Origin: a virus
IMG/VR virus record: IMGVR_UViG_3300047564_005910
Span: 48,317 to 112,316 of that record
Length of the DNA: 64,000 nt
Reading direction: 5' to 3' (one strand)
Shown here: positions 5,096-63,727 of the stretch, in pieces
Layout of the letters: each line of letters opens with the position of its first letter
Numbering within the stretch: position 1 is the stretch's first letter
Made by a program: the position numbers and the translations under genes
The notes under the pieces: model-generated
The model's database searches: none
The model's input: only the letters and a program-made list of their open reading frames with translations
Told to the model about the DNA's origin: nothing

Positions 5096-5102
5096 ATAAA
5101 TA
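5096..5102 (+). promoter_or_regulatory. Late-promoter-like box upstream of the 5115 gene
   Basis: ATAAATA preceded by C. A T4-type late promoter would start transcription about 6 bases downstream, near 5108. This would remove the ATG at 5106 and favours the ATG at 5115. It forms a compact divergent promoter pair with the gp25 box. Confidence 0.5.
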
Positions 5103-44651: not shown

Positions 44652-44652
44652 A

Positions 44653-45465: not shown

Positions 45466-45483
45466 TAAGATAGTTTATTGTGT

Positions 45484-46275
45484 TTATAGACTTTTTGCAA
45501 GATCTAGTATTGTATCTTTATAGTAATTAAAATCGCATACTGTAGTATCTTTTTGAATTGTTTTTTCGTATTTTGATTCTAATAATTCCTGGGTTATGTC
45601 AGACCATTTATCTATAAACAGTATCGGGCTATTCTTAAACGTATGTAACGGCACACTTTTTAAGCAAATAGGAATTGTACCTACATACATAGACTCCCAT
45701 ATACGGTGACAATCGACGCTATTACCTGGTGGTGAAATTACATATTTGTATGTACTAAGTTTTCTCAAGTAGGTCTCAAAATCTAGTTTCTCTTTTTCAA
45801 AATCAATAAAAGGTATTTCTTTTAATTTTTGTAATGCTAAAAATCTAGCATTATGATTTGTGTTTATATCAAAATTACAGTAACAAAAATTTTTCTTATC
45901 ATTTTTTTCTTTAATAATTTTTATAACAGTGTCTTTATTACCGTGAGGCCAGACTTCATTAGCCATTCCTATTGGTATAGGGAATAATTTTTTATGTATG
46001 GTATGACAGTTCATGCCAAACCACATAACAAGATTTTCGTTATTAAGAATAGAAAGATATTGATTAGTTACAGGGGCGTCGGCATCGTGTGTTATTAGAA
46101 TAAACTTGTAATTAATTTGTGGTAACACCCTCGCCATAAAGACAGGTATGTTATCTGAGTGTAAAAAGAAGATTTTATTTTCTGGTTTTAGTTCGAGTTT
46201 AATCCTGTTTCGTGCAATATAGTTGTTTGCTAAGTCTAAAAAACGGTCAGGGGTTATAATAAAACTGTTTGTCAT
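45484..46275 (-). CDS. Exostosin-like putative glycosyltransferase
   Basis: 263 residues. The C-terminal half has the exostosin/GT47-type pattern YVISPPGNSVDCHRIWESMY followed by GTIPICL (about residues 175-202), where the sugar nucleotide binds. The first half has no clear motif. Its start overlaps the stop of the preceding gene by 4 bases, so it is translated as part of the island operon. Confidence 0.6.
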   Translation of the reverse strand: MTNSFIITPDRFLDLANNYIARNRIKLELKPENKIFFLHSDNIPVFMARVLPQINYKFILITHDADAPVTNQYLSILNNENLVMWFGMNCHTIHKKLFPIPIGMANEVWPHGNKDTVIKIIKEKNDKKNFCYCNFDINTNHNARFLALQKLKEIPFIDFEKEKLDFETYLRKLSTYKYVISPPGNSVDCHRIWESMYVGTIPICLKSVPLHTFKNSPILFIDKWSDITQELLESKYEKTIQKDTTVCDFNYYKDTILDLAKSL

Positions 46276-47216
46276 ATATTTAAAAAGTGTTTAATTTTCT
46301 TTTTATTGTGTACATGTAAATTAAAAATGGGTATATTAATACCCTTGTAAACTATAAAGGGTTCTTTATTAAATTTTACTTCAATATTTTTATCTATTAT
46401 TTCTTTACCAACAAAATGTCGATATTCACAATACCCTTCTGGGTGACCGTTATTAGTGCCTCCTAAAAATTGTCCGTAAGAAGTGGGATCAAATACAGCT
46501 TGAACAGTTTCAAAGTTTTTTGAATACTCCCCGAGCGGTACGCACGGTAACATTTTGTATTGTTTTGAGCCTTTACGGATTAAATCTAAAAACGCCATAT
46601 CGGTTATCCAAGGCGCAAAATGACCAACATACGGGCGTATTACTTGCTCTCCTTTATTCAAAAGTTTTATGTGTAGTTTGTACAAAGTATCCCCTGCTGC
46701 AGCATCTTTAATATATATTAAAGAAGGAGCCGATGAGTTTGGGGCTTCGTTGCACCATCCAAAATCTCCTGCAGAAAATAGACTATTTATTTTTGTAAAA
46801 TCATTAGCAAAAATTATATTATCGGCTTCTATATGAATAGTATTTTCGATATTGAACTTTTTCACTGCTATAGTCAAAACTATAACACGAGCAAAGGTAG
46901 TAAACCAAAACGGATCGATGCGATAACGAGACCATTTAGCATTTAAAACTTCAATGTACTGTTTAAATTCATCAGTAGGTACAATCTCTTGGTCGACATC
47001 GATATAGGTTATATTTGTTTCGCCAAGCGTTTTTTTAATAGTTTCGATCTCTTTACTGTGACTTATTAAATAAGTGTTATCAAATTTTTTTCGGTTATAA
47101 TTTAATGTGTCTAGGTAATATTCAGGTACACTCTGATAACTATACGAGCTCGTTTGAGTTTGTGGTAGTGCACAAAACTTATCGTTTAAAAAGACATAAA
47201 CAAGACTGTTTGACAT
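46272..47216 (-). CDS. Putative glycosyltransferase
   Basis: The start at 47216 (MSNSLVYVFLND) is preferred because it follows the preceding stop by one base; an in-frame ATG at 47240 would overlap that gene. About 314 residues. It contains an ENTIHIEADNIIFAND segment (near residue 130) in which E-A-D stands where a GT-A enzyme has its DxD metal motif. No closer family recognised; grouped by position in the island. Confidence 0.5.
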   Translation of the reverse strand: MSNSLVYVFLNDKFCALPQTQTSSYSYQSVPEYYLDTLNYNRKKFDNTYLISHSKEIETIKKTLGETNITYIDVDQEIVPTDEFKQYIEVLNAKWSRYRIDPFWFTTFARVIVLTIAVKKFNIENTIHIEADNIIFANDFTKINSLFSAGDFGWCNEAPNSSAPSLIYIKDAAAGDTLYKLHIKLLNKGEQVIRPYVGHFAPWITDMAFLDLIRKGSKQYKMLPCVPLGEYSKNFETVQAVFDPTSYGQFLGGTNNGHPEGYCEYRHFVGKEIIDKNIEVKFNKEPFIVYKGINIPIFNLHVHNKKKIKHFLNI

Positions 47217-47217
47217 T

Positions 47218-48006
47218 TTAATCTTTATAGAGTGTTTCAAACATCTGACTTAGTACCGGTCTTTCATTAAACTGATGAACAATAGGGTAGGGTTCGTCGT
47301 TTGAGGCGTACAGTTTAGCATTTTTAACATTATCATTTGTTAATTCATTATCGCTGACATGTGCTAGATGAACAATATAATCGTTACCGTGTGTTAAAAT
47401 TGTTGGTTTAATACTATTAAAAACGTAATATAAAACATTCAATATTACCTGATCATAAGCAAAATAATACTGTCTAGCTAAAACGTTTTGAAGCTCATAA
47501 GCTACCTGTTTTTGATAATCTTTAATACTTTCTTTTGAACCTATTGTAATACCACAGTTTAATATTTTTTTATCTTTTACTTTATCGTAATCAGGGCTAT
47601 ACCCCATATTAAACCAAGTAGTGTTAGTGTCACACTCTGAATATAATTTTTTTTCTTCGCAAATAATAAAAGTATCAGTTTTAACTTTTTCTAAAATTTT
47701 AAACGGATCTTCTTGAAAAATAACGTCAACATCTGTTAAAAGTACGTTACAGTCTTCTTTAAAGTCTTTAAGGAAAAAGTAATATAAAATAGGTTTTAGG
47801 TTAAATGGTGTAAGATTTAAATTAATCTTATACTTTTTTGCCATATCAAAAATATTAACTGTTTTAACTTTTTCGAAGCCTGTAAATTGATCAGGCCTAT
47901 CTGTAATGAGATATAAATCTCCTGACGCATATTTGTTATAACTTTTTAAAAACGGTAAAACGTTTTTACGTCCGTAGTTTATCGATAGGGCTATGGTAAT
48001 GTTCAT
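47218..48006 (-). CDS. Putative nucleotide-diphospho-sugar transferase
   Basis: 262 residues. GT-A layout with NVLLTDVDVIFQEDP (about residues 85-99), where D-V-D forms the metal-binding motif, and a FNMGYSPDYDKV segment later on. Resembles small proteins annotated as nucleotide-diphospho-sugar transferases. It overlaps the next gene upstream by 4 bases. Confidence 0.6.
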   Translation of the reverse strand: MNITIALSINYGRKNVLPFLKSYNKYASGDLYLITDRPDQFTGFEKVKTVNIFDMAKKYKINLNLTPFNLKPILYYFFLKDFKEDCNVLLTDVDVIFQEDPFKILEKVKTDTFIICEEKKLYSECDTNTTWFNMGYSPDYDKVKDKKILNCGITIGSKESIKDYQKQVAYELQNVLARQYYFAYDQVILNVLYYVFNSIKPTILTHGNDYIVHLAHVSDNELTNDNVKNAKLYASNDEPYPIVHQFNERPVLSQMFETLYKD

Positions 48007-48800
48007 GATTTAAAATATTGTTGTTCCAGTTCTTCTTCGTTTTGAAACGGTATATACCATAATATATTATTATGGGTAGGTCTTTTTAGCAAGACGTTTT
48101 GTACATAACCGAACCACTTTAGTCCTAATTGATCTTTATCAGATGCAAACGTGTCTCTGTTATATTCATTCCCGGGGTCGGTTTCCATCGATGAGCTTTT
48201 ATGGTCAAGATGAAATATCGATAGTGGTGGTTTGTTTAAAACTTTACAATCCCCATATATCATACATTTAGCAAAAAAATATGTATCCCAATATGCTCTG
48301 CTTAATAACATTGGTTTAAATTTTTCTTTATTTTGCACCCACCATTCTTTTTTAATACCAAAACCATCAAAACCGTGCACACTAACTGATTGTGGTACAG
48401 AGGTTTTGTCGTGTATAGAATCTAGTTTAGTAAAGTGAAGCTTTGTAGCTGGAAAGCATTCTTTTGTTGGGTTTTGGTTAATTGCTTTTATAAATCTATC
48501 TGAAATTGCAACGTCACTGTTTATAAAAATAAAGTAATCGTAATTTAAATGAGCAAGTATGTCAAAAATATCATTTACAAACGGAAGCTTTTTTTTAGCT
48601 AAATCCACATTTGTTCTTTCTAATGCATGTACATTTAAAAACCCATCTAAAACAAAACTTTCGTCTTTATATGTAACACTTACAGCTTCTACTGTATCGT
48701 ATTTTTTACAAATTTCCCGAATAGAGTCAACACACATTTGCTCTCTGTTGTTAAAGTCTTTTTCGTTTTTATATGTGTTAATGCCAATAGCTATTTTCAT
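48003..48800 (-). CDS. Glycosyltransferase, GT2-like
   Basis: 265 residues. The start MKIAIGINTYKNE and the FIFINSDVAISDRFI segment (about residues 93-107) fit the nucleotide and metal sites of family 2 enzymes; HGFDGFGIKKEWW follows. It overlaps the neighbours on both sides by 4 bases (ATGA type). The target is unknown. Confidence 0.65.
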   Translation of the reverse strand: MKIAIGINTYKNEKDFNNREQMCVDSIREICKKYDTVEAVSVTYKDESFVLDGFLNVHALERTNVDLAKKKLPFVNDIFDILAHLNYDYFIFINSDVAISDRFIKAINQNPTKECFPATKLHFTKLDSIHDKTSVPQSVSVHGFDGFGIKKEWWVQNKEKFKPMLLSRAYWDTYFFAKCMIYGDCKVLNKPPLSIFHLDHKSSSMETDPGNEYNRDTFASDKDQLGLKWFGYVQNVLLKRPTHNNILWYIPFQNEEELEQQYFKS

Positions 48801-49582
48801 TTTTTTAACATATTAAGAAGTTTAAGCATATCCTCTCGGGACGTATCAGGTATTTGATTAACCATTAACCCGTGCTTTTCTTTAAAGTACGCCCACTCTT
48901 TTTGTATTCTTTGTTCCCGGGAACCGTCGGGTCGATCGGCCTGTAAGCGGCTTTTTGCATCAGGATTGTTCATAATGTATTCATCTGAATTTGTTATGTC
49001 AGCAAACCACCAAAACGGTGAACTATAGACATGGCCTGATTCTCTATAAGCCATGTCTATATCAAACGGATCTCTAAAATTACCGTCATATAAACCGACT
49101 GACTCAAAACAAGATTTATGATGATATGTAAATTCGTTACACATATTTTTATAAAAAGAAACACTCGAACCATTTTTATATTCGACTGTTAAACGAGGTG
49201 TTCTTTTACCTGGTGTTCCAGATTCCCAAGCTGTACTTACGTAAGAAAAATACTTTAAACCAGAAGCATCTGAAGCGTTTATGTATGCTTCAAAAATATT
49301 AGGGTTTTTAATTAACATATCATCTTCAATAATAAAAATATGTTCGCAATCCCTGTTTAATAGAAACGTTAAACAATCATTTCGGCAAACAGATGGGTAA
49401 AAATTTTTAACATGTTGTACCCAATGTGCACGTTTGTATTCTTTTTCTCGTTCATAACGGTCCCCGCCATTGACTACTACTAACTGATCAATCTTATCAT
49501 GAGGTAGAGTATTATACAGTGAGTAAAAATACTCTTCAGAGTTATATGTAACAATACCTACACCTATATTATTTTTGCTCAT
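48797..49582 (-). CDS. Glycosyltransferase, GT2-like, paralogue A
   Basis: 261 residues. NIGVGIVTYNSEEYF start, IFIIEDDMLIKNPN (DD metal motif, near residue 76) and FWWFADITNS (near 180). The same order IG-x-GI-x-T, IEDD and R/W-WFADITNS occurs in the next gene, so the two arose by tandem duplication. It overlaps the next gene upstream by 14 bases. Confidence 0.7.
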   Translation of the reverse strand: MSKNNIGVGIVTYNSEEYFYSLYNTLPHDKIDQLVVVNGGDRYEREKEYKRAHWVQHVKNFYPSVCRNDCLTFLLNRDCEHIFIIEDDMLIKNPNIFEAYINASDASGLKYFSYVSTAWESGTPGKRTPRLTVEYKNGSSVSFYKNMCNEFTYHHKSCFESVGLYDGNFRDPFDIDMAYRESGHVYSSPFWWFADITNSDEYIMNNPDAKSRLQADRPDGSREQRIQKEWAYFKEKHGLMVNQIPDTSREDMLKLLNMLKK

Positions 49583-50363
49583 ATTGTTTTTTAATTTGTT
49601 TCATTAATGTTATAGTTTCTTCTTTAGAAGCTGTTTTTTCATAAGGGTTTCTAACATCGAAACCGTGCTTATCTACAAAATAATTACACGCCTTATGAAA
49701 ATTTTCTAGCCATTTTTCATCACGGCGAATTTCTGAACCAGTATGACCTCTGTCTATTTCTTCAATATATGCATTACTATTAGTAATATCGGCAAACCAT
49801 CGAAACGGTGGGTGCATTTTTTTATTAATAATACTTTGAGTGTGATCGACATGCTCCATAGCGTTGTAAAAAAATTCGTCCATATTACCAACGGCTTCTA
49901 AACATTTTTTTGTATACATAGAAAAAGCACCGTATAAATTTGGGTACAAACAAACAGAAACTTCAGGGGAGTAGTCAACTTTTAATCTCACGGCAGGGGA
50001 TCCGTCCGGTTTATAGTTGTCCAGACCATGGAACGCAAAATTAAAATGTTGTATACCAGATTTGTTCGAAGCTTCAATATATTTTTCGAAAACTGTTAAG
50101 TCTTTAATGACTATATCATCTTCTATTAAAAAAATATACTCACACTCTTTAAGTTGATTTAGTGCCCGGTTCTTTGCCTTGCCGACTCCTTGTTTAGGAG
50201 GAACGTTGTTGTAAACTGTTAACTTATTACCACCATCAATTTGTTTTAAGCCGTCATTAATAATAACTAACTTAGCACCTTTTAAATCTTTTAAAGAATT
50301 AATTAATTTCTTTAAGTAGTCCGGTCTGTCGCAAGTTATAATACCTATACCTATTTTATTCAT
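49569..50363 (-). CDS. Glycosyltransferase, GT2-like, paralogue B
   Basis: 264 residues, first gene of the sugar island after gp47. KIGIGIITCDRPDYL start, IFLIEDDIVIKDL (metal motif near residue 74) and FRWFADITNS (near 176), shared with paralogue A. The acceptor-side segments differ, so the two copies may use different acceptors. It overlaps the end of gp47 by 8 bases, tying the island to the gp47 transcript. Confidence 0.7.
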   Translation of the reverse strand: MNKIGIGIITCDRPDYLKKLINSLKDLKGAKLVIINDGLKQIDGGNKLTVYNNVPPKQGVGKAKNRALNQLKECEYIFLIEDDIVIKDLTVFEKYIEASNKSGIQHFNFAFHGLDNYKPDGSPAVRLKVDYSPEVSVCLYPNLYGAFSMYTKKCLEAVGNMDEFFYNAMEHVDHTQSIINKKMHPPFRWFADITNSNAYIEEIDRGHTGSEIRRDEKWLENFHKACNYFVDKHGFDVRNPYEKTASKEETITLMKQIKKQYEQK

Positions 50364-53891: not shown

Positions 53892-53909
53892 ATAAATACA
53901 ACATAAATA
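53892..53909 (+). promoter_or_regulatory. Tandem late-promoter-like boxes upstream of the frameshift gene
   Basis: Two ATAAATA copies at 53892-53898 and 53903-53909 in the uvsY divergent gap. The second ends 6 bases before the ATG at 53916, so a T4-type start point would fall on or next to the start codon. Confidence 0.5.
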
Positions 53910-53915
53910 TATTAT

Positions 53916-54346
53916 ATGCGTGATTTTAAAGACTATTTTTTAGAAAAACTTGATCCGGTAGGCCGGGAAGATGCTGATGTAAATAACGACAATAAAGAAG
54001 ACGAAACTGACAAATATCTTTTAAAACGTCGGGCGGCAGTTGCAAAAAGTAAGGCAGAAAAAAAAAAGTAGCAACTGAAGCTAAGGAAAAACGTCGGCTA
54101 GATCCTAAATGCTGGAAGGGCTATCGCAAATCCGGTACGAAGTTAAAAGATGGTGTAAGAGTCAATAAATGTGTCAAAGTTAATGAAGTGACAAGTGTTG
54201 GTGCTTTAGGGCCTGCCGCAGGTGGTACGACTCAGTTTTCAAGCGATACATATGCCTCTGGGGACGCAAGGACACCTTATGTAATCGGCAAGACAATAAA
54301 AAGAGCCCCTTTTTTAAAGAAAAAGAAAAGAAAGTCTAGTAAATAA
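53916..54346 (+). CDS. Basic late protein made by a candidate -1 ribosomal frameshift
   Basis: The zero frame runs from ATG 53916 for 51 codons to TAG at 54069-54071. Directly before the stop is A AAA AAG (54062-54068), in the correct phase for -1 slippage. The -1 frame is then open to TAA at 54344-54346 and carries a basic, low-complexity end including [12 protein letters not shown] and [17 protein letters not shown], which resembles the C-terminal half of proteins known to me in marine T4-like phages. The combined product is about 143 residues. The start [10 protein letters not shown] resembles a capsid-targeting leader. A homopolymer (A10) sequencing error is the main alternative. Confidence 0.6.
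54062..54071 (+). other. Slippery heptamer A AAA AAG with adjacent stop
   Basis: Zero-frame codons end ...AAA AAA AAG TAG. The heptamer is the same type as in E. coli dnaX. It lies inside a run of ten A (54058-54067), so transcriptional slippage is a second option. No strong downstream hairpin was checked. Confidence 0.55.
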
Positions 54347-54349
54347 AGT

Positions 54350-54766
54350 ATGCTTGAAACCGGTCATTGGCTTTTAAAAGAGGGGGTCGTCTTGCAACCG
54401 GAAACTTTTGGGTTTATATATCTAATTACAAATCTTGTAAACAACAAAAAATATATTGGAAAAAAGCAGTGTTTTATGAAGATAACGCGAAACCCTTTAA
54501 AGGGGTTTAAGCGTAAACGTATCAGTAGAGCTGAATCGGGCTGGAAAGATTATACTAGTTCATCGAATGAACTGAACGAAGATATTGAAAAGTATGGTAA
54601 AGATAATTTCAAATTTGAAATTTTAAAAACATGCGGCTCAAAATGGGAGCTAGCATATGAAGAAATTAAAGAGCAAATCAAACAAGAGGTACTGCTTCGG
54701 TCTGATTATTATAACGGCATAATCAATGTACGTATTGGCAGACCTCCTAAAAGTTTAAATAAGTAA
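54350..54766 (+). CDS. GIY-YIG-type nuclease-like protein
   Basis: 138 residues. GFIYLITNLVNNKKYIGKKQ (about 21-40) matches the GIY-YIG core with G-F-I-Y and Y-I-G; W49-type spacing then SSSNELNEDIEKYGKDNFKFEIL (about 71-93) fits the family of stand-alone phage nucleases. Whether it is a mobile homing enzyme or a fixed nuclease is not clear; no interrupted target gene was seen next to it. It follows the frameshift gene by 3 bases. Confidence 0.75.
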   Translation: MLETGHWLLKEGVVLQPETFGFIYLITNLVNNKKYIGKKQCFMKITRNPLKGFKRKRISRAESGWKDYTSSSNELNEDIEKYGKDNFKFEILKTCGSKWELAYEEIKEQIKQEVLLRSDYYNGIINVRIGRPPKSLNK

Positions 54767-54771
54767 TTACA

Positions 54772-55401
54772 ATGAGCATGCAATTAATAGATGAAAAAGT
54801 ACCTGTGGGTACGACAAGAGTAAGTAGATGTTTATATTGTAATTCAACATCCTACGGTAAGGGCTGTCGTTACGCCCCAAAGGGTGTACACTTTCATCCA
54901 AGTGACGCTAAAAAGTGCTCGTATTGTGGCTCAACAAATTACGGAAGAGGTTGTAAATTAAATCCTTTTGGAGATATACACCTTCACGGCATAGATTATA
55001 ATATGATGTTTAAAGAAAACGTAGATAAAACCTTAAAAAAACAGTTTCTCTTAAAAGAGCTTACAAAAAAAATATCTGAATTTAATGCTTATAAACTCGG
55101 TATCATAGATATTAATGGCAATAAAATTAAAGAACCGAAAACATTGTTTGAACAGGCGGCGTATTCCCCGGGTGTAAAATTAATCTTAAAAGTAAAAAAG
55201 TTTTTAGGTGCTAAAACCGAGCTTATTAATACAACATCTTTATTGGAAAATAAAAATAAAATTGATTATTCGGCAAATAAATTAAAAACAGTTTTAGAAT
55301 ACGAAGAAAAAATACAGGATATATTTGCACAGTTACATGAAGTAGCTGATAACGCTTTAAGAGATGGCTTGACTATCGAAGAAGTTGAAGCCATGTTATA
55401 G
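54772..55401 (+). CDS. Protein with duplicated zinc-ribbon repeats
   Basis: 209 residues. Two near-copies of a C-x2-C-x8-C-x7/8-H-x-H unit: C20, C23, C32, H40, H42 and C49, C52, C61, H70, H72, each with a Y-G-x-G turn before its last Cys. The rest is helical and charged. This module is common in T4-like phages; function unknown. It lies between the nuclease gene and an unknown gene, with 5- and 2-base gaps. Confidence 0.6.
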   Translation: MSMQLIDEKVPVGTTRVSRCLYCNSTSYGKGCRYAPKGVHFHPSDAKKCSYCGSTNYGRGCKLNPFGDIHLHGIDYNMMFKENVDKTLKKQFLLKELTKKISEFNAYKLGIIDINGNKIKEPKTLFEQAAYSPGVKLILKVKKFLGAKTELINTTSLLENKNKIDYSANKLKTVLEYEEKIQDIFAQLHEVADNALRDGLTIEEVEAML

Positions 55402-55403
55402 GC

Positions 55404-55889
55404 ATGCATTTTAAAGAGTTTCCGGAAAGCCGTATTTGCGTAATAGATTTTAAACCTGTATTATTAAAAGCAATAAAAAACGCTCAAGGTTTTTGTAAAA
55501 AGTCTAATTTAATTTTTGATCTAAAAAATAAAGACATTAAAAAGCTTCTTAGTCATTTTATTATTAATGATTTTTGTAGTGTTTACTCTCGTACTAAGAC
55601 GTCGTATATAAAAATATTTGGAGTATATAAAACTGATATTAACGAAGAATATCAAAAAATATTTGACAAAATATTGTCAGTGTTACCTATACCGTACTGT
55701 GTAATTGAAAACATGGATCACCCAGATACAAAATACGCAGCTATTAACAAAATTAATCAGGATAAAAATAATTACCGGCAGCTTAAGCGTTTTGCAAATA
55801 ATAACGGATTAACTAAACTACAAGAAAATTTAACTAAACAAAATATTTTTTTCGGTGGAACAGTTGATTTTTCACGTTCACTCGAATAA
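55404..55889 (+). CDS. Unknown protein
   Basis: 161 residues, ATG two bases after the previous stop. The mixed alpha/beta pattern (RICVIDFKPVLLKAIKNAQ near the start; YIKIFGVYKTD in the middle) shows no recognised motif, signal peptide or membrane segment. Probably co-transcribed with the zinc-ribbon gene. Confidence 0.5.
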   Translation: MHFKEFPESRICVIDFKPVLLKAIKNAQGFCKKSNLIFDLKNKDIKKLLSHFIINDFCSVYSRTKTSYIKIFGVYKTDINEEYQKIFDKILSVLPIPYCVIENMDHPDTKYAAINKINQDKNNYRQLKRFANNNGLTKLQENLTKQNIFFGGTVDFSRSLE

Positions 55890-55949
55890 AAGTATTAAAG
55901 ACTTTTGAGCCCCCCAATACCATCAGATAACTTTTTACGCTAATAGAGA

Positions 55950-55956
55950 TTAAATA
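55950..55956 (+). promoter_or_regulatory. Late-promoter-like box upstream of the Gln-rich gene
   Basis: TTAAATA ending 6 bases before the ATG at 55963; same spacing as at 53916, 56238 and 60525. Confidence 0.45.
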
Positions 55957-55962
55957 CATTAT

Positions 55963-56211
55963 ATGAAATTTGACGAGCTTTATAAATCTTTAACAGAAGC
56001 CTATCCTATGGCTCCTAATCCAAATCTTCCTAAACAACAACAAGGGCAACCTAATCAGCAACAACCTAATCAGCAGCCTAATCAACAACAGACTCAACAG
56101 CCTAATCAACAACAGGGTGGGGTTGATCAGACAGTATTGGATGAGTTAGCTAAAGCCCAGAATCCGCAAGCTGTATTGCAAATTTTACAACAAAAGCTTG
56201 GGGTTAAGTAG
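55963..56211 (+). CDS. Gln/Asn/Pro-rich small internal-head-type protein
   Basis: 82 residues. The leader MKFDELYKSLTEA ends in L10-T11-E12 then A, a good match to the T4 prohead-protease site (L/I-x-E then A/G/S), so residues 1-12 look like a capsid-targeting sequence. Then a low-complexity Pro-Asn-Gln-Gln tract (about 25-52) and a short C-terminal domain (about 55-82). Small, polar and late: fits an internal head protein, but this is inference. Confidence 0.6.
   Translation: MKFDELYKSLTEAYPMAPNPNLPKQQQGQPNQQQPNQQPNQQQTQQPNQQQGGVDQTVLDELAKAQNPQAVLQILQQKLGVK
56017..56119 (+). repeat. CAA/CAG-rich imperfect repeat tract coding Pro-Asn-Gln-Gln
   Basis: A low-complexity tract of variable CCTAATCAGCAA-type units inside the 82-residue gene. 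The varied codons suggest protein-level selection rather than simple DNA slippage. Confidence 0.5.
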
Positions 56212-56223
56212 TTTTTAGTATAC

Positions 56224-56230
56224 ATAAATA
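56224..56230 (+). promoter_or_regulatory. Late-promoter-like box upstream of the ligase-like gene
   Basis: ATAAATA (preceded by C) 7 bases before the ATG at 56238. Confidence 0.5.
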
Positions 56231-56237
56231 TAAATGT

Positions 56238-57488
56238 ATGCTACTCGAGAAAGCGTTTAATTCTTTCTATAAAGAAAATGTTAACACCTACCTGCTTGAA
56301 AAAGCCGGGATTGTTAAACATTTAACACATCTGGAAGAATTAATACTTACCCAACGAGCAATGGGGGTTGAAGTAGCTGTCAACTTTATAAAGGTTTTAC
56401 TCGATACACTTGAAGGTGGTACTGATCAAAGAGTAATTACCACTATTAAGTACGACGGTGCACCAGCAATAATTGCTGGTATTAATCCAGATAATAATCG
56501 CTTTTTTGTATCTACAAAAAGTATTGCCAATGTAAAGCCAAAAATAAACTATACTGCCCAAGATATTGTTAACAATCACGGAAACGCACCTGGGTTAGCA
56601 GAGAAACTTAAAATGGCCTTACAGTATCTCCCTGAAGTTATAAAACAAGGCATCTACCAATGTGATTTTATGTTTGACCCGGGAACACTTTATACTGTCG
56701 AACATGAAGGTGAGAAACTTTTAGCATTTAAACCGAACACAATTGTTTATACCTTTCCGTATGATAGTGAAGCGGCTCAAGAGATACTCAAAGCAAAAAT
56801 AGGGGTTATTTTTCATACAAAGTATGAAGGTGCACCAAGTCAAGGTCTTACATCAGGTGGTGTTGTTAATGTTAATGAATTTAATAAATCTTCAAACGTT
56901 TGGTTTGACGATGCTCAATTTAAAAACGTCTCCGGTGCTGTTACACTTACAAAAAAAGAAAAGACCGGTATTAATGAAACTCTTAAAAATATAATTTCAA
57001 TTAGCCGCACTGTAAATTGGGATAAGTTACCACCGGATTTTTATAGTAACGCAAATACTTTTATTAATACCCTTATAAGACAAGGTAAGTTTGTTGATGA
57101 CCCGGTGGAAGGGTATGACAGTATTGTTAAATGGATTGGTGAGAGGTATGATAAAGATACGTCAGTACTTAAAACCGACAAGGGCCGGGAACGTAAATTA
57201 CAGCAAAAAGAAGAAGAAATGAAAACCCTTAAGGTACATAAAAAAGATATTTTAAGTATTTTTAGTATAACAAAAAAATTAGCTGAAATAAAAATTCTCT
57301 TTATTCAAAAATATAACGCAGCCATACATACAAGACATTTTATAGCGGAACCTAATGGTGATCTAAAGGTTACCGCTCCGGAGGGCTATGTTGCAATTGA
57401 CCAAGAGGGGAACATGATTAAACTTGTTGACAGGTTAGAATTTTCCCGTGCTAATTTTGCTGTAACAAAAGGAGAAAAGTTTAAGTGA
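56238..57488 (+). CDS. Nucleotidyltransferase/ligase-like protein (KxDG motif, DUF6267-type)
   Basis: 416 residues. The KYDGAPA segment (K71-Y-D-G) resembles motif I of covalent nucleotidyltransferases (DNA/RNA ligases, capping enzymes), with a following FKPNTIVYTFP strand like a later ligase motif. It resembles the phage DUF6267 group, whose chemistry I do not know to be established. The N-terminal 21 residues end in L-L-E then K and look like a capsid-targeting leader. The stop overlaps the GTG start of the next gene. A role as a head-packaged enzyme is possible. Confidence 0.55.
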   Translation: MLLEKAFNSFYKENVNTYLLEKAGIVKHLTHLEELILTQRAMGVEVAVNFIKVLLDTLEGGTDQRVITTIKYDGAPAIIAGINPDNNRFFVSTKSIANVKPKINYTAQDIVNNHGNAPGLAEKLKMALQYLPEVIKQGIYQCDFMFDPGTLYTVEHEGEKLLAFKPNTIVYTFPYDSEAAQEILKAKIGVIFHTKYEGAPSQGLTSGGVVNVNEFNKSSNVWFDDAQFKNVSGAVTLTKKEKTGINETLKNIISISRTVNWDKLPPDFYSNANTFINTLIRQGKFVDDPVEGYDSIVKWIGERYDKDTSVLKTDKGRERKLQQKEEEMKTLKVHKKDILSIFSITKKLAEIKILFIQKYNAAIHTRHFIAEPNGDLKVTAPEGYVAIDQEGNMIKLVDRLEFSRANFAVTKGEKFK

Positions 57489-58111
57489 AATCCTTTTATT
57501 CTTTCTTTTTTGAAAACGAACAAACTGGTAAAACAATAGTTATTTTTCCAGGCGGTTTTCATCCTTTTCATAAAGGGCATAAGAGTATATACGACAATAT
57601 TGTAAAAACATTTCCAAATGCGGACAAGTATATTGCTATTGCTGATTTTACAAAAGATCGTCCATTTACCGCGGACGAAAAAAAGCTTATAATATCTTCA
57701 ACGGGTATTGATCCTAACGCAGTACGAGTTGTAAAAAGCCCGTTTAAAGCAGAAGAAATTTTATCTCGATATAACCCTGAGAAGGATACAGCAATATTTG
57801 CTATGAGCGAAAAAGAAAAGCAAGACCCTAAAAAAGCTTCTTTCTTTAACCCGTTTAAGAAAGACGGATCACCTGCTTATTTTCAGCAGTATCAAACAAG
57901 TACACCATTACAGCCATTCGGTAAGCATGGTTATATATATGTATTCCCAACAATTGATTTTAAGCTTCTCGGTAAATCGTTTCGTAGTGCTAGTGAATTA
58001 AGGCAGTATTATCAAAGCCTTAATGACGAACAAAAAATGTCTCTACTAAAAGACATGTATATAAGCAATCAAGAACAAATTAAGAAAATATTTGACGAAA
58101 GATTGATATAA
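57485..58111 (+). CDS. Nucleotidylyltransferase-like protein (HxGH superfamily, NMNAT/CTP-type)
   Basis: 208 residues, starting at GTG within the overlap GTGA with the ligase-like stop. GGFHPFHKGH (23-32) is the HxGH-type signature of nucleotidylyl transferases, and a SFRSASELRQYY segment in the C-terminal part stands where NMNAT/CCT enzymes have their second motif. This class joins a nucleotide to a phosphate acceptor such as NMN. The leader MKSFYSFFFE resembles the capsid-targeting type. Substrate unknown; related NadR-like kinases (35240, 59875) raise NAD metabolism as one possibility. Confidence 0.6.
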   Translation: MKSFYSFFFENEQTGKTIVIFPGGFHPFHKGHKSIYDNIVKTFPNADKYIAIADFTKDRPFTADEKKLIISSTGIDPNAVRVVKSPFKAEEILSRYNPEKDTAIFAMSEKEKQDPKKASFFNPFKKDGSPAYFQQYQTSTPLQPFGKHGYIYVFPTIDFKLLGKSFRSASELRQYYQSLNDEQKMSLLKDMYISNQEQIKKIFDERLI

Positions 58112-58153
58112 TAGTTGAAATTAGGTATTCCGGAATATATCATATTGGTATAT

Positions 58154-58471
58154 ATGAGTACAACCATTTTATATCCGGCTGACGAAAGTAGTACCAGTCA
58201 GCATTCAATCCCGTTTTCAAAAGATGAAATTAACTTAATTATTGAGTGTTTATTATTTTCATCATCAGTAAACATCGGGGCAGATTGGCAAGAAGATGAT
58301 TTTTTAAAAATGTTAACGCTTGCTAAAAAAATTAAAAAGATTATTAGCAAAATTGATCTTAAAAACCTTATGCTCTATAAAGAAGAAAATTACGAAGATA
58401 ATTGGACTGAAGAGCTATGTAAAGAATTTGGTAAAGATATTCAACAGGAAGTAGAGCTAAATAAAGCCTAA
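58154..58471 (+). CDS. Unknown small protein before queD
   Basis: 105 residues from the ATG at 58154, which is preferred over an in-frame TTG at 58115. Mostly helical and acidic, no known motif or membrane segment. The stop overlaps the queD start by one base, so it is translated with queD and might support the same pathway; this is only a positional hint. Confidence 0.5.
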   Translation: MSTTILYPADESSTSQHSIPFSKDEINLIIECLLFSSSVNIGADWQEDDFLKMLTLAKKIKKIISKIDLKNLMLYKEENYEDNWTEELCKEFGKDIQQEVELNKA

Positions 58472-58917
58472 TGATAACATTCGAATCAACAAAAATAATT
58501 GAGCTAGGCTCATGTGCATTTCGTCAATGGCGAGCAGAAGGTACTCACTGCAAGTATGTACATGGTTATCAATTAAAAGCTAAATTCTGGTTCGGGTGCA
58601 CCGGTTTAGATGATAAAAACTGGGTCATTAATTTTGGTGGCTTAAAAGAAGTTAAAAGGTTATTACAAGATCAGTTTGATCATACGCTCTGTATAGCGGC
58701 AGATGACCCTCTACTTAATATCTTTAAAGATCTTTACGAAAGAGGTGGGTGCCAGCTTCGTATCATGGATGGTGTCGGTATTGAGAAAACTGCTGAGTGG
58801 TGCTATAAAAACGTTGACCCCATGATAAGGTCAATGTCAGTAGGACGTTGCTGGGTTAATAAAGTTGAAGTTTGGGAACACGATTTAAATAGTGCAATTT
58901 ATGAAAGATCAGCTTGA
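58471..58917 (+). CDS. queD: 6-carboxy-tetrahydropterin synthase-like QueD, unusual zinc site
   Basis: 148 residues of the T-fold. It should convert dihydroneopterin triphosphate (FolE product) to carboxytetrahydropterin. The catalytic C27, D70-H71 and E136 line up with E. coli QueD. However, the zinc triad is changed: the AAH histidine is replaced within GSCAFRQW, and the second His of HGH is Y33 (HGY), leaving H31; H26 might compensate. A CAFRQWRA...HGY subgroup exists, to my memory, in proteobacteria and phages. Followed by a membrane protein, queE and a kinase in one transcript. Confidence 0.8.
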   Translation: MITFESTKIIELGSCAFRQWRAEGTHCKYVHGYQLKAKFWFGCTGLDDKNWVINFGGLKEVKRLLQDQFDHTLCIAADDPLLNIFKDLYERGGCQLRIMDGVGIEKTAEWCYKNVDPMIRSMSVGRCWVNKVEVWEHDLNSAIYERSA

Positions 58918-59110
58918 AATTATTAATGCCAAATTTGAAAAGGTGATGCCTAAAAATGATAAGGGCGGATTTTGGGGCGGCTTATGGCAGTTTTTATCTC
59001 TTGTATCTATACTTATCTTTTGCGCTTTTTACGTTCTTTTTTTAAACCCACTTGGATGGCTGAGCATTGTAATAATGTCATTAGTCTATAAATTTATTAT
59101 CGGGAGTTAA
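58901..59110 (+). CDS. Small membrane protein between queD and queE
   Basis: About 69 residues from ATG 58901, inside the queD end; an in-frame GTG at 58892 is possible. After a polar 25-residue start come two hydrophobic segments (about 31-46 and 50-66) rich in Leu, Ile, Val and Phe, so probably two membrane helices joined by a short NPLG turn. No family recognised. It is in the QueD-QueE transcript (3 bases before queE). Confidence 0.5.
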   Translation: MKDQLEIINAKFEKVMPKNDKGGFWGGLWQFLSLVSILIFCAFYVLFLNPLGWLSIVIMSLVYKFIIGS

Positions 59111-59113
59111 TTT

Positions 59114-59872
59114 ATGATAGATAACAATAAAGAAACATTGTTCCTTTCTGACGATTTAGTATTTTATACTATTGAAGGTGAAGGAGAGTTCATTGGGCAG
59201 CCGTCGGTGTTTATGCGATTAGCTATGTGTAATTTGACATGTATTGGTTTTGCGTCGCCTGATTCACCTAACGGTTGTGATTCATTTGTGTCGTGGTCTG
59301 TAAAAAATAAAAAGACATTTACTGAGATCTTTCAAATGATGGAAAATAACAATTACGTAGAACACCTTCGTAATAGAGCAATATTAAAATTAACCGGTGG
59401 GGAGCCCCTTATTCAAGAAAAGCAGCTTCTTAAATTTATTGAAGCCTTTATTGAGAGATATAATTTTACCCCTCGTATTGATTTTGAAACTAACGCAACA
59501 CTGATACCTTCTGAACGGTGGCGCTCAATTTTTAATGCAACGTTTACTACATCCCCTAAGCTGTCCACTAACGGGGACCCAGAAGAGAAGTCTTATAAAC
59601 CGGAAGTACTCCGCTGGCATGTCGAGCATGGTTCGGGGTTTAAGTTTGTTATTACTTCTGATAGAGATATAGAGGAGATTTGGAAAAAGTACGTTGATGA
59701 CGACCAAGGTATAAATGTGCCGTTATTTCGTATATGGTTTATGCCATGTTGCGGCTCACGTAAAGAGCATATTGAAAATGCAGCAGCTGTTGCTGAATAT
59801 GCTAAGTCAATGCACGTGAATTTTTCTCCAAGATTACAGCTAGTAATTTGGGATAAAGCGCTTAAAGTATAA
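59114..59872 (+). CDS. queE: 7-carboxy-7-deazaguanine synthase QueE (radical SAM)
   Basis: 252 residues. Converts carboxytetrahydropterin to CDG with SAM and a 4Fe-4S cluster. The N-terminal YTIEGEGEFIGQPSVFMRL and TGGEP (94-98), plus the TSPKLS motif, fit QueE. The cluster cysteines are C39, C43 and C55: C-x3-C-x11-C, not the usual C-x3-C-x2-C, so the loop has an insertion like that known in some QueE (for example C-x14-C-x2-C). Two bases before the kinase gene. Confidence 0.9.
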   Translation: MIDNNKETLFLSDDLVFYTIEGEGEFIGQPSVFMRLAMCNLTCIGFASPDSPNGCDSFVSWSVKNKKTFTEIFQMMENNNYVEHLRNRAILKLTGGEPLIQEKQLLKFIEAFIERYNFTPRIDFETNATLIPSERWRSIFNATFTTSPKLSTNGDPEEKSYKPEVLRWHVEHGSGFKFVITSDRDIEEIWKKYVDDDQGINVPLFRIWFMPCCGSRKEHIENAAAVAEYAKSMHVNFSPRLQLVIWDKALKV

Positions 59873-59874
59873 TA

Positions 59875-60504
59875 ATGAAAATTGCTTTTATTGGTACACA
59901 TTGTAACGGAAAAACTTCTCTTATAGAAGAATTTTTGCAAAAATGGCCTATGTACAAGCGGCCTGAAAAAACATATAGAGAACTTCTTAAAGAGAAAAAA
60001 GTAACAAATAATAAAGAAGGAACTGAAGAAAGTCAAAAAGCTATTTTAAACGCTCTCATCGATGAAATACAAGAAGCTGTTGCGACCGGGGATAAAGACA
60101 TTGTTTTCGATCGCTGTGTAATCGATAATATCGTTTACTCTCTTTGGTTAAACGAAAATAATAAAGTTAGTGATCAATTTATAATGGATTCAAAATTCTT
60201 AGCATTGCAAAGTTTAAAAATGTTAGATATTATATTTTATTTGCCGTTAAGAGAAGAAATTAAAATTACTGAAAAAGAAACTAGAGAAACTGATCCATCT
60301 TATCGAAAAGAGATTGATAATATTTTTAATGCTTTAGTACAGACATATGAAAAAAATACCGGTGCTTTCTTCCCTCTAGAAGATTGTCCTGCAGTCATAA
60401 GACTTGAAGGTCCTCCTGATTTAAGATGTCAACAAATACAGCTTTATCTAAAAGAAACAGGTCAAGTATATAGCGAAACCGACGGATCCTTACTTTATGT
60501 ATAA
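59875..60504 (+). CDS. P-loop kinase/ATPase (AAA_28, NadR-kinase-like), paired with queE
   Basis: 209 residues. Walker A GTHCNGKTS (7-15), then DRCVIDNIVY (about 82-91), the same motif as DRCILDGYVY in the kinase at 35240-35788. Both are near deazaguanine genes (this one 2 bases after queE), which suggests paralogues with related substrates. Unlike the other copy it is in the QueD-QueE transcript. The substrate is unknown. Confidence 0.7.
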   Translation: MKIAFIGTHCNGKTSLIEEFLQKWPMYKRPEKTYRELLKEKKVTNNKEGTEESQKAILNALIDEIQEAVATGDKDIVFDRCVIDNIVYSLWLNENNKVSDQFIMDSKFLALQSLKMLDIIFYLPLREEIKITEKETRETDPSYRKEIDNIFNALVQTYEKNTGAFFPLEDCPAVIRLEGPPDLRCQQIQLYLKETGQVYSETDGSLLYV

Positions 60505-60510
60505 AAAGCA

Positions 60511-60517
60511 TTAAATA
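60511..60517 (+). promoter_or_regulatory. Late-promoter-like box upstream of the 477-residue gene
   Basis: TTAAATA, 7 bases before the ATG at 60525, in the gap after the kinase gene. Confidence 0.45.
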
Positions 60518-60524
60518 TTATAGA

Positions 60525-61958
60525 ATGTTTAATTTTAATGCCATTGTTGATACAATTATACTTGAAGCGCAAGCAAATACAAAACTCGGACAAGTTATCT
60601 CCAATCCACCTTTTTTAGGGTTATTCGATGTTTATAAAGCTACCTTTGGTATTGATTTGGCAAATGATCCAAATTTAGAAACAGCATTAAACCTTGTTTT
60701 AACTAGTGGTCAGCGTATTGCAAGTAGAGATGTACTTGCACCGGCAATACCTATAATGGATGCTTTTGAAGGAGTACACACGTACCTTGTCGGTCAAAAT
60801 AGTTATAACCTTAAAACAAAAACTGATTTAGATAGTTTTTTAGAAGAAATACAAACTGCTAAAAACAATAGTACAGATTGGTCAAAAATCGAAAGCATTG
60901 TTAATACCGCTATAACAAATATTAAAAACGTACAAACTTCAGACCCGTTAGATTACAGGCCATCGTCCCCGAAAACCGCAGCTGCACATAGAACACTAAC
61001 ATCTGAATTTGACAAACTCTCTCAAACGGCCGTTGAGCAGTTAGGAAGAGACACGATACAAAACGCTATACAAAAAATAATTACAAAACGTGTTTCAGTA
61101 TCGAATAGAATATTAGCTGGTAAAGGTATTCGTAAACCGTTTCAATCAACATTATTAATACCGTTATTTGACTATTATAAAAATTATACAACAGGCGGCG
61201 GTATAATTTATGACAAAATACCGGGAGATTTTAAAGACGCTGTAGATCAATTATCTATAGACAAAATTATAAATGTAGCAATTTTGTCAGGAGAGTATTA
61301 TCTTTCCCTTCTTAGAAAGCAAATGGCTGCAGCTGGTCAACAGCAACAAGTACAGCAAAACAAACAGCAGCAAAATAAAAATATACGTGCAAATGTTGGT
61401 AGAAGTCAGGCAGGTAACCAGTCGAGTGGTTTCAAGGCCTGGGCTCAAAGCCCGCAAGGGCAGGGTCCTACTGTTGCTGCAGCTCCTGCCGGAGCTCCTC
61501 CTTCACCTGTAAATGCTAGCTTATTAACGTTTGATGACTACGCTAGAGAGCTTTTAGGGGAAGCAAACCCACAAAGAGGTCTTACGAAAGATGTTTATGA
61601 CGGTACAGCTCGAGCAATTGGTACCGCCCGCTTATCAGACTTTGTTTTGTTTATTAAAGAAGGTAAATCATTATGGCTACCCGAAACTCAACAACAGCAA
61701 GGTCAACAACAAACTCAACAGCAACAAGGGCAGCAACAAACACAACAACGCCAATCTGGCCCTGTAATTTATAATTTAGAAACTATCAGTAAGGACACAT
61801 CAAAAGAAGCTCAAGCCCTCTATACAGCTCTTAGAAGTATGGCTTATTACACCAGGGAGACATCTGGTTTTGGTTACCGATCTCAACAACTAGGTAAAGC
61901 TATGGGATCATTAGCACAAGTGGGCGGTGCCAAACTTTATGGAGGCCCAGGAACATAA
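60525..61958 (+). CDS. Gln-rich putative internal head protein
   Basis: 477 residues. The leader MFNFNAIVDTIILEAQ contains I12-L13-E14 then A, a good prohead-protease-type site. The body (about 20-265) is helical; about 265-300 and 385-420 are Gln-rich low-complexity tracts (QQQ, GQQQTQQ). No enzyme motif was seen. The leader, the late box and the neighbours suggest a protein packaged in the head. Confidence 0.55.
   Translation: MFNFNAIVDTIILEAQANTKLGQVISNPPFLGLFDVYKATFGIDLANDPNLETALNLVLTSGQRIASRDVLAPAIPIMDAFEGVHTYLVGQNSYNLKTKTDLDSFLEEIQTAKNNSTDWSKIESIVNTAITNIKNVQTSDPLDYRPSSPKTAAAHRTLTSEFDKLSQTAVEQLGRDTIQNAIQKIITKRVSVSNRILAGKGIRKPFQSTLLIPLFDYYKNYTTGGGIIYDKIPGDFKDAVDQLSIDKIINVAILSGEYYLSLLRKQMAAAGQQQQVQQNKQQQNKNIRANVGRSQAGNQSSGFKAWAQSPQGQGPTVAAAPAGAPPSPVNASLLTFDDYARELLGEANPQRGLTKDVYDGTARAIGTARLSDFVLFIKEGKSLWLPETQQQQGQQQTQQQQGQQQTQQRQSGPVIYNLETISKDTSKEAQALYTALRSMAYYTRETSGFGYRSQQLGKAMGSLAQVGGAKLYGGPGT
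61684..61760 (+). repeat. CAA/CAG-rich low-complexity tract (poly-Gln)
   Basis: Imperfect repeats of CAACAACAAG-type units coding the second Gln-rich tract of the 477-residue protein, with mixed CAA and CAG codons. Confidence 0.5.
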
Positions 61959-61972
61959 ATAATAAATAAATA
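61955..61972 (+). promoter_or_regulatory. Overlapping late-promoter-like boxes upstream of the 80-residue gene
   Basis: ATAAATA repeats in ATAAATAATAAATAAATA at 61955-61972; the first box would place the transcript start near the ATG at 61974. Confidence 0.5.
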
Positions 61973-61973
61973 T

Positions 61974-62216
61974 ATGAAATCTCAATTTGATACTCTTATA
62001 GAAGGCTTTCTGCCATCAACCATTCGGGTTGTAACAAGAACTCGTTACCCTAAACAAATTCAGTTTTCTGAAGAGTTTATGACAGCAGTTAAAAAAGAGT
62101 ATGCAAGACTTCAAACTGTTACAGAGAGCGGGGAGGAAGGTCAAGCCCCGGTACCGATTAAAAACTATAAAGAAAAGTTTTTAAAAGCGCTTAACTTCTG
62201 TGTGCACACGTTTTAA
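61974..62216 (+). CDS. Small putative internal head protein
   Basis: 80 residues. The leader MKSQFDTLIEGFL contains L8-I9-E10 then G, a full match to the T4 prohead-protease site. The rest is basic then polar, with no recognised domain. It ends 1 base before the convergent primase gene. Confidence 0.55.
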   Translation: MKSQFDTLIEGFLPSTIRVVTRTRYPKQIQFSEEFMTAVKKEYARLQTVTESGEEGQAPVPIKNYKEKFLKALNFCVHTF

Positions 62217-62217
62217 T

Positions 62218-63222
62218 TTATTTTAAGGCTTTGCGGGTTATAGCCTCTAGACCCTTGTAGCTATTTTGTACAAATAATCTCCACGGTACTTCGTCTAACT
62301 GCAGTTTTGTACACATTTCGTTAATATCTTTAAATTTACTAAATTCCTTAGGCCAAATAAAGACTCTTTTCTTTTCATTAATTGTTCTTTTAATACGTTT
62401 ATCCATTTGTTTGTTATCTTTATCGTTATCGTAAACGTATATTACTTCTTTATCGAAATGCTTTTTAAGGAATATCTCCTGTCTTTCAGTTAAAGATGTA
62501 CCTGCCATAGCTACACCGTTCTGTACAAACATTGAGTCTATCGGGCCTTCAAATAAAAATATATAGGGTATATCAGCCTTTATATTATTTTCACCGTACA
62601 ATGTCTTTTCCCCAAATTTAGTAAGATATTTTGGCTGTTGATCTTTATAAAGAGACCTACTCTGATAACATTCAATTTTATTGTCAGTGGAATAAAACGG
62701 TATTATTAGACGGTTTTTATGTACCTTATCTTGCAAAGATATATAAAATGTTTTAGGTTTATTAATAGCTGTAAACAAGCGTCTTTCCTTGCACACGTTT
62801 AAAGCATCTTCAATTACATTATATGAACTCGTGTTAGCATAATATTGACATTGTCTACTATCAAGTAAATCAATACTATCTTCAGGTATTGGTGGTATAT
62901 CTTTTTGTAAGAGCTTTTCTGAAGAAACAGTATTTGTAACAACTACTCCTTCGTAATTAGAAGCTTCCTGTAGGATGGCATATATTGTCTTTTTTGTTAC
63001 CTCTTGTAACCAGTTTATTTCTTTCCAAGACTTTGAACAATTAAAGCAGTAAAAATATCTTTCTTGAGGAAAATAAAATAATCTTTTCTTTTTACCTGCA
63101 GAGTCTCCTTCATTACAAATACAGCATTCTGCGTTGTAGTTACCTTGAAACTTTTTATAGGCAGGCCTTTTACAATACGAGTACAATTGCTGTATTACGT
63201 AACTTTGCGGTAAACCTTCCAC
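62218..63222 (-). CDS. 61: DNA primase gp61
   Basis: 334 residues (T4 gp61: 342). N-terminal zinc site C33/C36 and C59/C62; Toprim core with FLFEGPIDSMF (about 224-234) and VYDNDKD (about 264-270), which hold the metal-binding residues. It makes RNA primers with helicase gp41. In this window it is apart from gp41 (30.8 kb) and is convergent with the 80-residue gene. Confidence 0.9.
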   Translation of the reverse strand: MEGLPQSYVIQQLYSYCKRPAYKKFQGNYNAECCICNEGDSAGKKKRLFYFPQERYFYCFNCSKSWKEINWLQEVTKKTIYAILQEASNYEGVVVTNTVSSEKLLQKDIPPIPEDSIDLLDSRQCQYYANTSSYNVIEDALNVCKERRLFTAINKPKTFYISLQDKVHKNRLIIPFYSTDNKIECYQSRSLYKDQQPKYLTKFGEKTLYGENNIKADIPYIFLFEGPIDSMFVQNGVAMAGTSLTERQEIFLKKHFDKEVIYVYDNDKDNKQMDKRIKRTINEKKRVFIWPKEFSKFKDINEMCTKLQLDEVPWRLFVQNSYKGLEAITRKALK

Positions 63223-63260
63223 AAAGATATTATACCTGAAATATTATTTTTTACAACAGA

Positions 63261-63707
63261 TTACTGTCCGGTAGCCGCTAAATCTCTTTGCTTTTTAGCA
63301 GAAGTAATAATATATCCCTTTAGTATCTCTACTAAACCAGCTGTAATTTCTGCAATACGAGTAATTTCTGCCGCGGTGTCTTGTGCGATACCAGCAAATA
63401 AACTCTCCGGTCTGTCTAAATCATTAACAAGTTTTAATAGAGATTCGGATTCCATACCATTTAAACTATCGCTAAACTCTTCGAGTTTTACAATTTGTGC
63501 CTTTAAAGCTCCTGCATCTCCACCTGCTACAGGAGCTGCTGTAACAGGGGCTGGCTCGACATCATAATTGTCTGGCTCAGGTACTTCGGTAACATCGTTT
63601 GTTACTTCTCCTGTGGCATCAACTGGCTCTTCTGATGGCTCTAAAGGTAGTTCTAGTTCTTCTTTTTCGTTTAAGAAAACAGCTTGATATAGGGAATCAA
63701 ATTTCAT
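63261..63707 (-). CDS. Acidic putative internal head protein
   Basis: 148 residues, rich in Glu, Pro, Val and Ala. The leader MKFDSLYQAVFLNEKEE contains L12-N13-E14 then K, resembling the capsid-targeting leaders on the plus strand. Then an acidic disordered part (about 15-75) and a helical C-terminal domain (about 68-140). An ATAAATA box is 13 bases upstream. Confidence 0.5.
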   Translation of the reverse strand: MKFDSLYQAVFLNEKEELELPLEPSEEPVDATGEVTNDVTEVPEPDNYDVEPAPVTAAPVAGGDAGALKAQIVKLEEFSDSLNGMESESLLKLVNDLDRPESLFAGIAQDTAAEITRIAEITAGLVEILKGYIITSAKKQRDLAATGQ

Positions 63708-63720
63708 AATTAGTATTAAT

Positions 63721-63727
63721 TATTTAT
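63721..63727 (-). promoter_or_regulatory. Late-promoter-like box upstream of the acidic head-type gene
   Basis: ATAAATA on the minus strand (TATTTAT on the plus), 13 bases before the ATG at 63707 and 7 bases before the divergent ATG at 63735. Confidence 0.5.

Follow-up and report, generated by a model that had tools for sequence, protein, structure and literature searches.

Leader-bearing genes of the window

The window analysed here comprises 64,000 bases, positions 48317-112316 of a 112,316-base IMG/VR virus record, and all coordinates below are window positions. The source of the record is a T4-like myovirus. Eight open reading frames (ORFs) in the window begin with leaders of 10-21 residues that resemble the capsid-targeting sequence (CTS) of T4 internal proteins. 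A first-pass annotation had placed these leaders, and all of its translations and coordinates were confirmed. The ORFs are listed below together with the frame that follows the first of them; a slash marks the predicted cut.

53916-54071, plus strand: 51-residue leader protein (from translation); leader at 53916-53945, then a short DxNxD-rich stretch
54053-54346, plus strand: open frame after a run of ten A (A10); a module, then a putative mimic of the gp23 N-arm at 54188-54346
55963-56211, plus strand: 82-residue Q/P-rich protein; leader at 55963-55998, MKFDELYKSLTE/A
56238-57488, plus strand: DUF6267 protein (PF19782, Pfam E=1e-92), KxDG nucleotidyltransferase/ligase-like; leader at 56238-56300, MLLEKAFNSFYKENVNTYLLE/K
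57485-58111, plus strand: HxGH nucleotidylyltransferase-like protein (PF01467, alignment A2), GTG start; leader at 57485-57514, MKSFYSFFFE/N
60525-61958, plus strand: 477-residue Q-rich protein of unknown fold; leader at 60525-60566, MFNFNAIVDTIILE/A
61974-62216, plus strand: 80-residue basic protein; leader at 61974-62003, MKSQFDTLIE/G
63261-63707, minus strand: 148-residue acidic protein, isoelectric point (pI) 4.1; leader at 63666-63707, MKFDSLYQAVFLNE/K
5115-5669, plus strand: leader protein outside the main cluster; METQFNLLYE/N, with METKFDVLFE/N in a relative

The leaders have the form M-x(1-3)-F/L/Y-x2-F/L/I/Y-...-[LI(F)]-x-E and, as translation shows, are made as part of each protein. 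Six of the eight end in strict L/I-x-E. The weaker leaders at 53916 and 57485 end, as described earlier, in F-x-E and their orthologues retain the E. The mature bodies are basic (pI 8.4-9.5) in seven of the eight proteins. In T4 the first 10 residues of the internal protein IPIII suffice as the CTS, which is cut at L/I-x-E (PMC9026906).

Conservation of the leader in relatives

The [LI]xE leader lies directly N-terminal to the conserved HLEHxED domain in 72 of 85 distinct relatives of the DUF6267 protein, for example as MKFTEFLTE/A or MQSFKQYLSE/S, the residue after E being most often A, S or G. Six of the 85 have a different P3 residue and seven, short cyanophage forms included, have no leader. 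In a 52-sequence DUF6267 alignment (A3) the leader M1 is invariant and E21 is at least 90% conserved.

Leaders are also retained in orthologues of the other proteins, including MIAFNxFFTE/Q, METKFDVLFE/N and MSKFDAVLKRIEE. The 53916 protein matches PHROG 4359 (E=1.5e-10), with relatives that start MQSFKQFLAEK and the like. Relatives of the 61974 protein carry MSKFDQLCE/S, MLKFDQICE/S or MSKFEQLVE/S, and those of the 63261 protein carry MKFDSLFKTVFLTE/Q and MKFDSLFKTVFITE/Q. At three loci (55963, 60525 and 57485) the leader is constant and the body changes. Proteins at the 55963 locus retain MSKFDxxxxxIxE or MSKFNALYNQIITE, at the 60525 locus the leaders MFNFKDIVSDILLE, MFSFSEIVNNILVE and MFNFTKIVHLVLE stand ahead of divergent bodies, and at the 57485 locus relative L013 shares an MIAFxRFFTE leader ahead of a divergent nucleotidylyltransferase body. 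In phage C48C1 (W05, OQ984149) the annotated start of a cytidyltransferase at 63448-64857 is placed too far downstream and cuts off the leader MIKNFSQYLLEE that the longer ORF includes.

The closest comparison for the head genes is relative G001 (103 kb), whose DUF6267 protein is 54% identical and whose gene order largely matches that of the record. At its end G001 encodes gp21 (PF03420 protease, E=3.6e-30), a gp22-like scaffold protein and gp23. The gp23 of G001 bears LLE/N and its gp22 starts MDFKSILKEQFKDLITED.

Leaders compared with chance

The motif [LI]xE occurs within the first 23 residues of 26 of 116 ORFs (22%) and in 16% of internal windows. It was therefore rejected as a test for leaders when used alone, as it is not diagnostic. 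Since the motif by itself is weak evidence, a fuller leader pattern was built and trained on 58 DUF6267 leaders, all from other phages. This pattern matches 11 of 114 ORFs of the record, compared with 3.4 in shuffled N-termini (P=0.001), and 2.5% of internal windows. Between 53.9 and 63.7 kb it matches five of 17 ORFs, with 1.0 expected (P=0.003). A conserved leader on otherwise unrelated proteins, one mark of a CTS, is seen here in both the excess over shuffles and the divergent bodies.

The same pattern matches 11 of 121 proteins in G001 (3.6 in shuffles, P=0.0005), with gp21, gp22 and gp23 among the matches. In the marine podovirus controls P-SSP7 and HTVC010P it matches one of 113 proteins. 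The excess over shuffles is clear in HTVC008M and C48C1 and modest in Melnitz. Three of the eight leaders (56238, 61974 and 5115) are missed by the pattern and therefore rest on conservation in relatives. Pattern matches at 7706, 23927 and 41035 (gp46) were judged likely to be chance or conserved N-termini and were not counted as leaders.

A putative late expression motif

The heptamer ATAAATA occurs in the record at 0.16 per kb per strand. Of 114 ORFs, 18 have it no more than 35 bases upstream, among them those for the tail sheath and tail tube (21459 and 20884). It precedes seven of 11 leader genes and 11 of 103 others (P=1.7e-4), and in G001 it also stands ahead of the gp22-like scaffold gene. 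The exact T4 late promoter TATAAATA was rejected as misleading, having only two matches, fewer than in shuffles; the local form ATAAATA is the informative one. The following sites, found by sequence scan, precede leader genes.

53903-53909: ATAAATA before the 53916 ORF
56224-56230, plus strand: ATAAATA, late-promoter-like, before the DUF6267 gene
61955-61961: ATAAATA before the 61974 ORF
63721-63727: ATAAATA before the minus-strand ORF that starts at 63707
5096-5102: ATAAATA before the 5115 ORF

The earlier description of the leader proteins as late is backed by this motif, which they have in common with sheath, tube and scaffold genes and which suggests late expression.

Leader-bearing proteins in virions of relatives

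The virion proteome of Synechococcus phage S-CREM2 has been published (PMC10665884, Table 3). The leader pattern, trained without S-CREM2, was applied to two annotated 50-kb stretches of this phage. It matches seven of 15 non-structural proteins detected by mass spectrometry and four of 126 undetected ones (Fisher P=9e-6). The seven include an S-adenosylmethionine (SAM) hydrolase (MKDFDSFLEE), an aminoglycoside phosphotransferase (APH)-like kinase (MKRFDAFLTEE) and a cytidylyltransferase (MKNFSSFLTEAD).

T4-GC190, a nucleotidylyltransferase whose gene neighbours DUF6267, has been reported from purified virions of phage S-SM1 (PMC3037559). The N-terminus of this protein is MKKFSAFLNE/A.

The virion-detected Cas9 of S-CREM2 (L120 7704-10313) has the CTS-like LRFASFMAE/AA just inside its annotated start, and the pattern misses the annotated N-terminus. 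This Cas9 has no Pfam match at E 0.01. A packaged Cas9 would be remarkable if true.

The DUF6267 protein and the nucleotidylyltransferase

The 56238 protein contains a KYDG motif with its lysine at position 71 (K71). K71, D73, G74, E382, G383, V385 and K395 are invariant in 52 DUF6267 sequences. K71-x-D73-G74, E382-G-x-V and K395 stand in the order in which motifs I, IV and V occur in covalent nucleotidyltransferases, with about 120 residues of helical insert lying in between. The structure was predicted from the 52 sequences, an earlier model from 10 sequences having been poor at the catalytic motifs. It has a predicted local distance difference test (pLDDT) score of 85.8, and residues 1-26 are the sole segment below 50.

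DUF6267 has no sequence match in the PDB and a Foldseek search gave no fold match there at E<=0.001, so that it is not classed as a ligase here. No ligase family is among the Pfam matches listed for alignment A3. Strong matches in a BFVD fold search include DUF6267 proteins and 'cytidyltransferase' fusions. The first-pass label of ligase-like for this KxDG protein therefore holds for the superfamily motifs and finds no counterpart among PDB folds. The protein shares the invariant K-x-D-G, E-G-x-V and K with the covalent nucleotidyltransferase (ligase and capping) superfamily, for example T4 RNA ligase 1, but differs in having no significant PDB match, in the helical insert that separates the motifs and in a Pfam label that reads only DUF6267. 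No prior report on DUF6267 was found in the open literature.

The 57485 protein contains an HKGH motif. Its match to PF01467 (E=1e-3) falls just under the cut-off, and relatives match above it (E=1.8e-5), in agreement with the earlier assignment as HxGH nucleotidylyltransferase-like. Its gene adjoins DUF6267 here and the two are close together in HTVC008M, Melnitz, DLP_6, C48C1 and P-HM1. In S-PM2 they are fused in one protein of 591 residues. The fusion (L119 2486-4261; L035) appears as two genes in NC_006820 and as one 591-residue gene in LN828717. Because the genes are adjacent here and fused in S-PM2, the two proteins probably act together. That they catalyse a joint nucleotidyl-transfer reaction, perhaps NAD-linked, is a guess.

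A putative mimic of the capsid protein arm

The frame at 54053-54346 ends in a sequence of the family MINLEQIVLDVLNEENVAGGA...YAPGDARIPK... A profile of this family, searched against all pooled proteins, matches gp23 of G001 at E=1.3e-4, with the next match at 0.23. The pairwise score of the mimic against gp23 is 61, which was reached by none of 1000 shuffles. In the reverse search, of the N-terminal part of gp23 against the proteome of its own phage, the top match in G001 is the mimic family (19801-20022, E=1.3e-5) and in S-CREM2 it is gp160 (E=3.6e-7), which was detected in virions. No mimic was found by this search in HTVC008M, DLP_6 or C48C1. The mimic tracks the clade, resembling the gp23 of its own clade, and comparisons between clades mostly fall short of significance; the sequence is YAxGDARxPK here and GFTGAAAPxGPxAGYDPxM in S-CREM2. 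A small basic protein thus appears to copy the N-arm that gp23, the major capsid protein of the same phage, has after cleavage. No prior report of such a mimic was found in the open literature.

A frame change at the A10 run (54058-54067) splits the 53916 leader from the mimic, and the run is identical in contig L004. In relatives the leader protein and the mimic are separate genes, each with its own leader. A one-base slip at the run would join the leader, the DxNxD-rich stretch, the module and the mimic.

Other genes of the record

Genes for GTP cyclohydrolase I, a QueF-like protein, a QueD-like protein (PTPS) and a probable QueE lie at 28189-28842, 34296-35243, 58471-58917 and 59114-59872. 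Together these genes form a 7-deazaguanine pathway, possibly with a role in DNA modification. A series of glycosyltransferase-like and related genes occupies 43917-50363 between gp46 and gp47, where content varies strongly among relatives.

Interpretation

We interpret the eight ORFs as a group of late proteins, unrelated to one another, whose shared N-terminal CTS is removable and of the T4 internal-protein type. The leader would dock each protein in the prohead core, as in T4 IPIII. A gp21-type prohead protease, such as the one found in G001, would then cut after E, and the mature body would remain in the head with the DNA, as the S-CREM2 and S-SM1 virions suggest. The DUF6267 protein and the HxGH nucleotidylyltransferase are the candidate enzyme cargo on this route.

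The earlier proposal that these proteins are carried in the head behind a T4-type leader cut at [LI]xE gains strong support from leader conservation, the late motif, the presence of gp21, gp22 and gp23 in G001 and the S-CREM2 association. Since the leaders are conserved, exceed chance and are linked to virions in S-CREM2 and S-SM1, we infer for the present phage that its leader proteins are targeted to the head, cleaved and packaged, with a probability of about 0.84.

Several observations weigh against this interpretation. The virion evidence comes from S-CREM2 and S-SM1 and not from the present phage, and detection by mass spectrometry in S-CREM2 is no proof of packaging. F at P3 in the 53916 and 57485 leaders departs from the strict T4 rule, and the 63261 protein is acidic, in contrast to a basic internal protein. 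The short cyanophage DUF6267 proteins of S-PM2 and P-HM1 have no leader, so the domain also works leaderless. DLP_6 shows no leader excess (four matches, 3.7 in shuffles). The link between ATAAATA and leaders is weaker in G001 (P=0.25 to 0.31 on strict criteria, P=0.02 on relaxed ones). Searches of the 112-kb record for gp21, gp22 and gp23 found none of them, while gp21 is seen in G001; a record without gp21 or gp23 is therefore a fragment, one that stops before these genes.

The leaders could be ordinary N-termini that fit a loose motif by chance, with virion detection due to carry-over from lysates, which the S-CREM2 authors themselves consider possible (PMC10665884). The near-background frequency of [LI]xE alone would agree with this, but the conservation of the leader in 72 of 85 DUF6267 relatives, the enrichment over shuffles and podovirus controls and the mass-spectrometry association, which is not expected under random carry-over, make it highly improbable. 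The leader proteins might instead be head-core or scaffold components like T4 gp67, gp68 and gp22, which are targeted, cut and then destroyed or expelled at maturation without being delivered. The 63261 protein, which is acidic and of low complexity, may indeed be a core or scaffold component instead of cargo; gp22 of G001 has a leader-like start of its own, and several leader-protein bodies are Q/P-rich and diverge fast. For the set as a whole this seems distinctly unlikely, as DUF6267 and the nucleotidylyltransferase are predicted to be folded enzymes with conserved catalytic residues and leader-tagged enzymes occur in finished virions of S-CREM2 and S-SM1.

Proteins that are packaged may also stay behind, aiding DNA condensation or head assembly. 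The basic character of seven of the eight bodies fits such a role, but T4 ejects both its internal proteins and Alt (PMC9026906) and the enzymes have no obvious role in the head, so retention of this kind is rather unlikely. By analogy with Alt and the internal proteins, we lean towards injection of the leader proteins into the host at infection, a step that remains speculative.

Comparison with known systems

The leader proteins resemble T4 IPI, IPII, IPIII and Alt in a leader of about 10-20 residues with aromatic or hydrophobic spacing and a terminal E, in probable late expression and in mostly basic bodies; the nearest relative also encodes a protease of the gp21 type. The leader proteins differ in that the bodies are unrelated and include KxDG and HxGH enzyme-like proteins, and in that some leaders have F at P3.

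A second comparison set is the virion enzymes of cyanophages S-SM1, S-SCSM1 and S-CREM2, namely T4-GC190 cytidylyl/nicotinamide mononucleotide (NMN)-adenylyltransferase, SAM hydrolase, APH-like kinase and Cas9. Members from S-SM1, S-SM2 and S-CREM2 have this type of leader and the nucleotidylyltransferase homologue adjoins DUF6267. The papers report detection alone and leave packaging open; the short-form DUF6267 of cyanophages also differs in being leaderless.

In the giant phages SPN3US and phiKZ a gp21 relative cuts N-terminal propeptides after E on several inner-head proteins (PMC5694885). Those propeptides are mostly longer than 100 residues and have other cut motifs, whereas the leaders here are of 10-21 residues and T4 style. 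No earlier report of capsid targeting in cyanophages or marine phages was found in the open literature, subscription papers lying outside the search. The tag itself is of a known kind; what appears to be new is how widely it occurs among marine and freshwater T4-like phages, together with the enzyme cargo and the link to virion proteomics.

We tentatively propose that the CTS leader may be a general, swappable tag of marine and freshwater T4-like phages that delivers enzymes into the host before phage gene expression (the ligase-like pair here; in S-CREM2 a SAM hydrolase, a kinase and perhaps Cas9), and that the gp23 mimic could anchor itself to the inner capsid lattice. Cyanophage virion proteomics repeatedly finds enzymes that cannot be called as packaged or contaminant, and a leader readable from sequence would suggest a mechanism for every such protein and a prediction to go with it. 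The finding singles out DUF6267 and the nucleotidylyltransferase, two conserved enzymes that are often encoded side by side and whose joint chemistry is testable. If true, many unknown genes of abundant aquatic phages would become candidate host-takeover or anti-defence effectors that act before gene expression.

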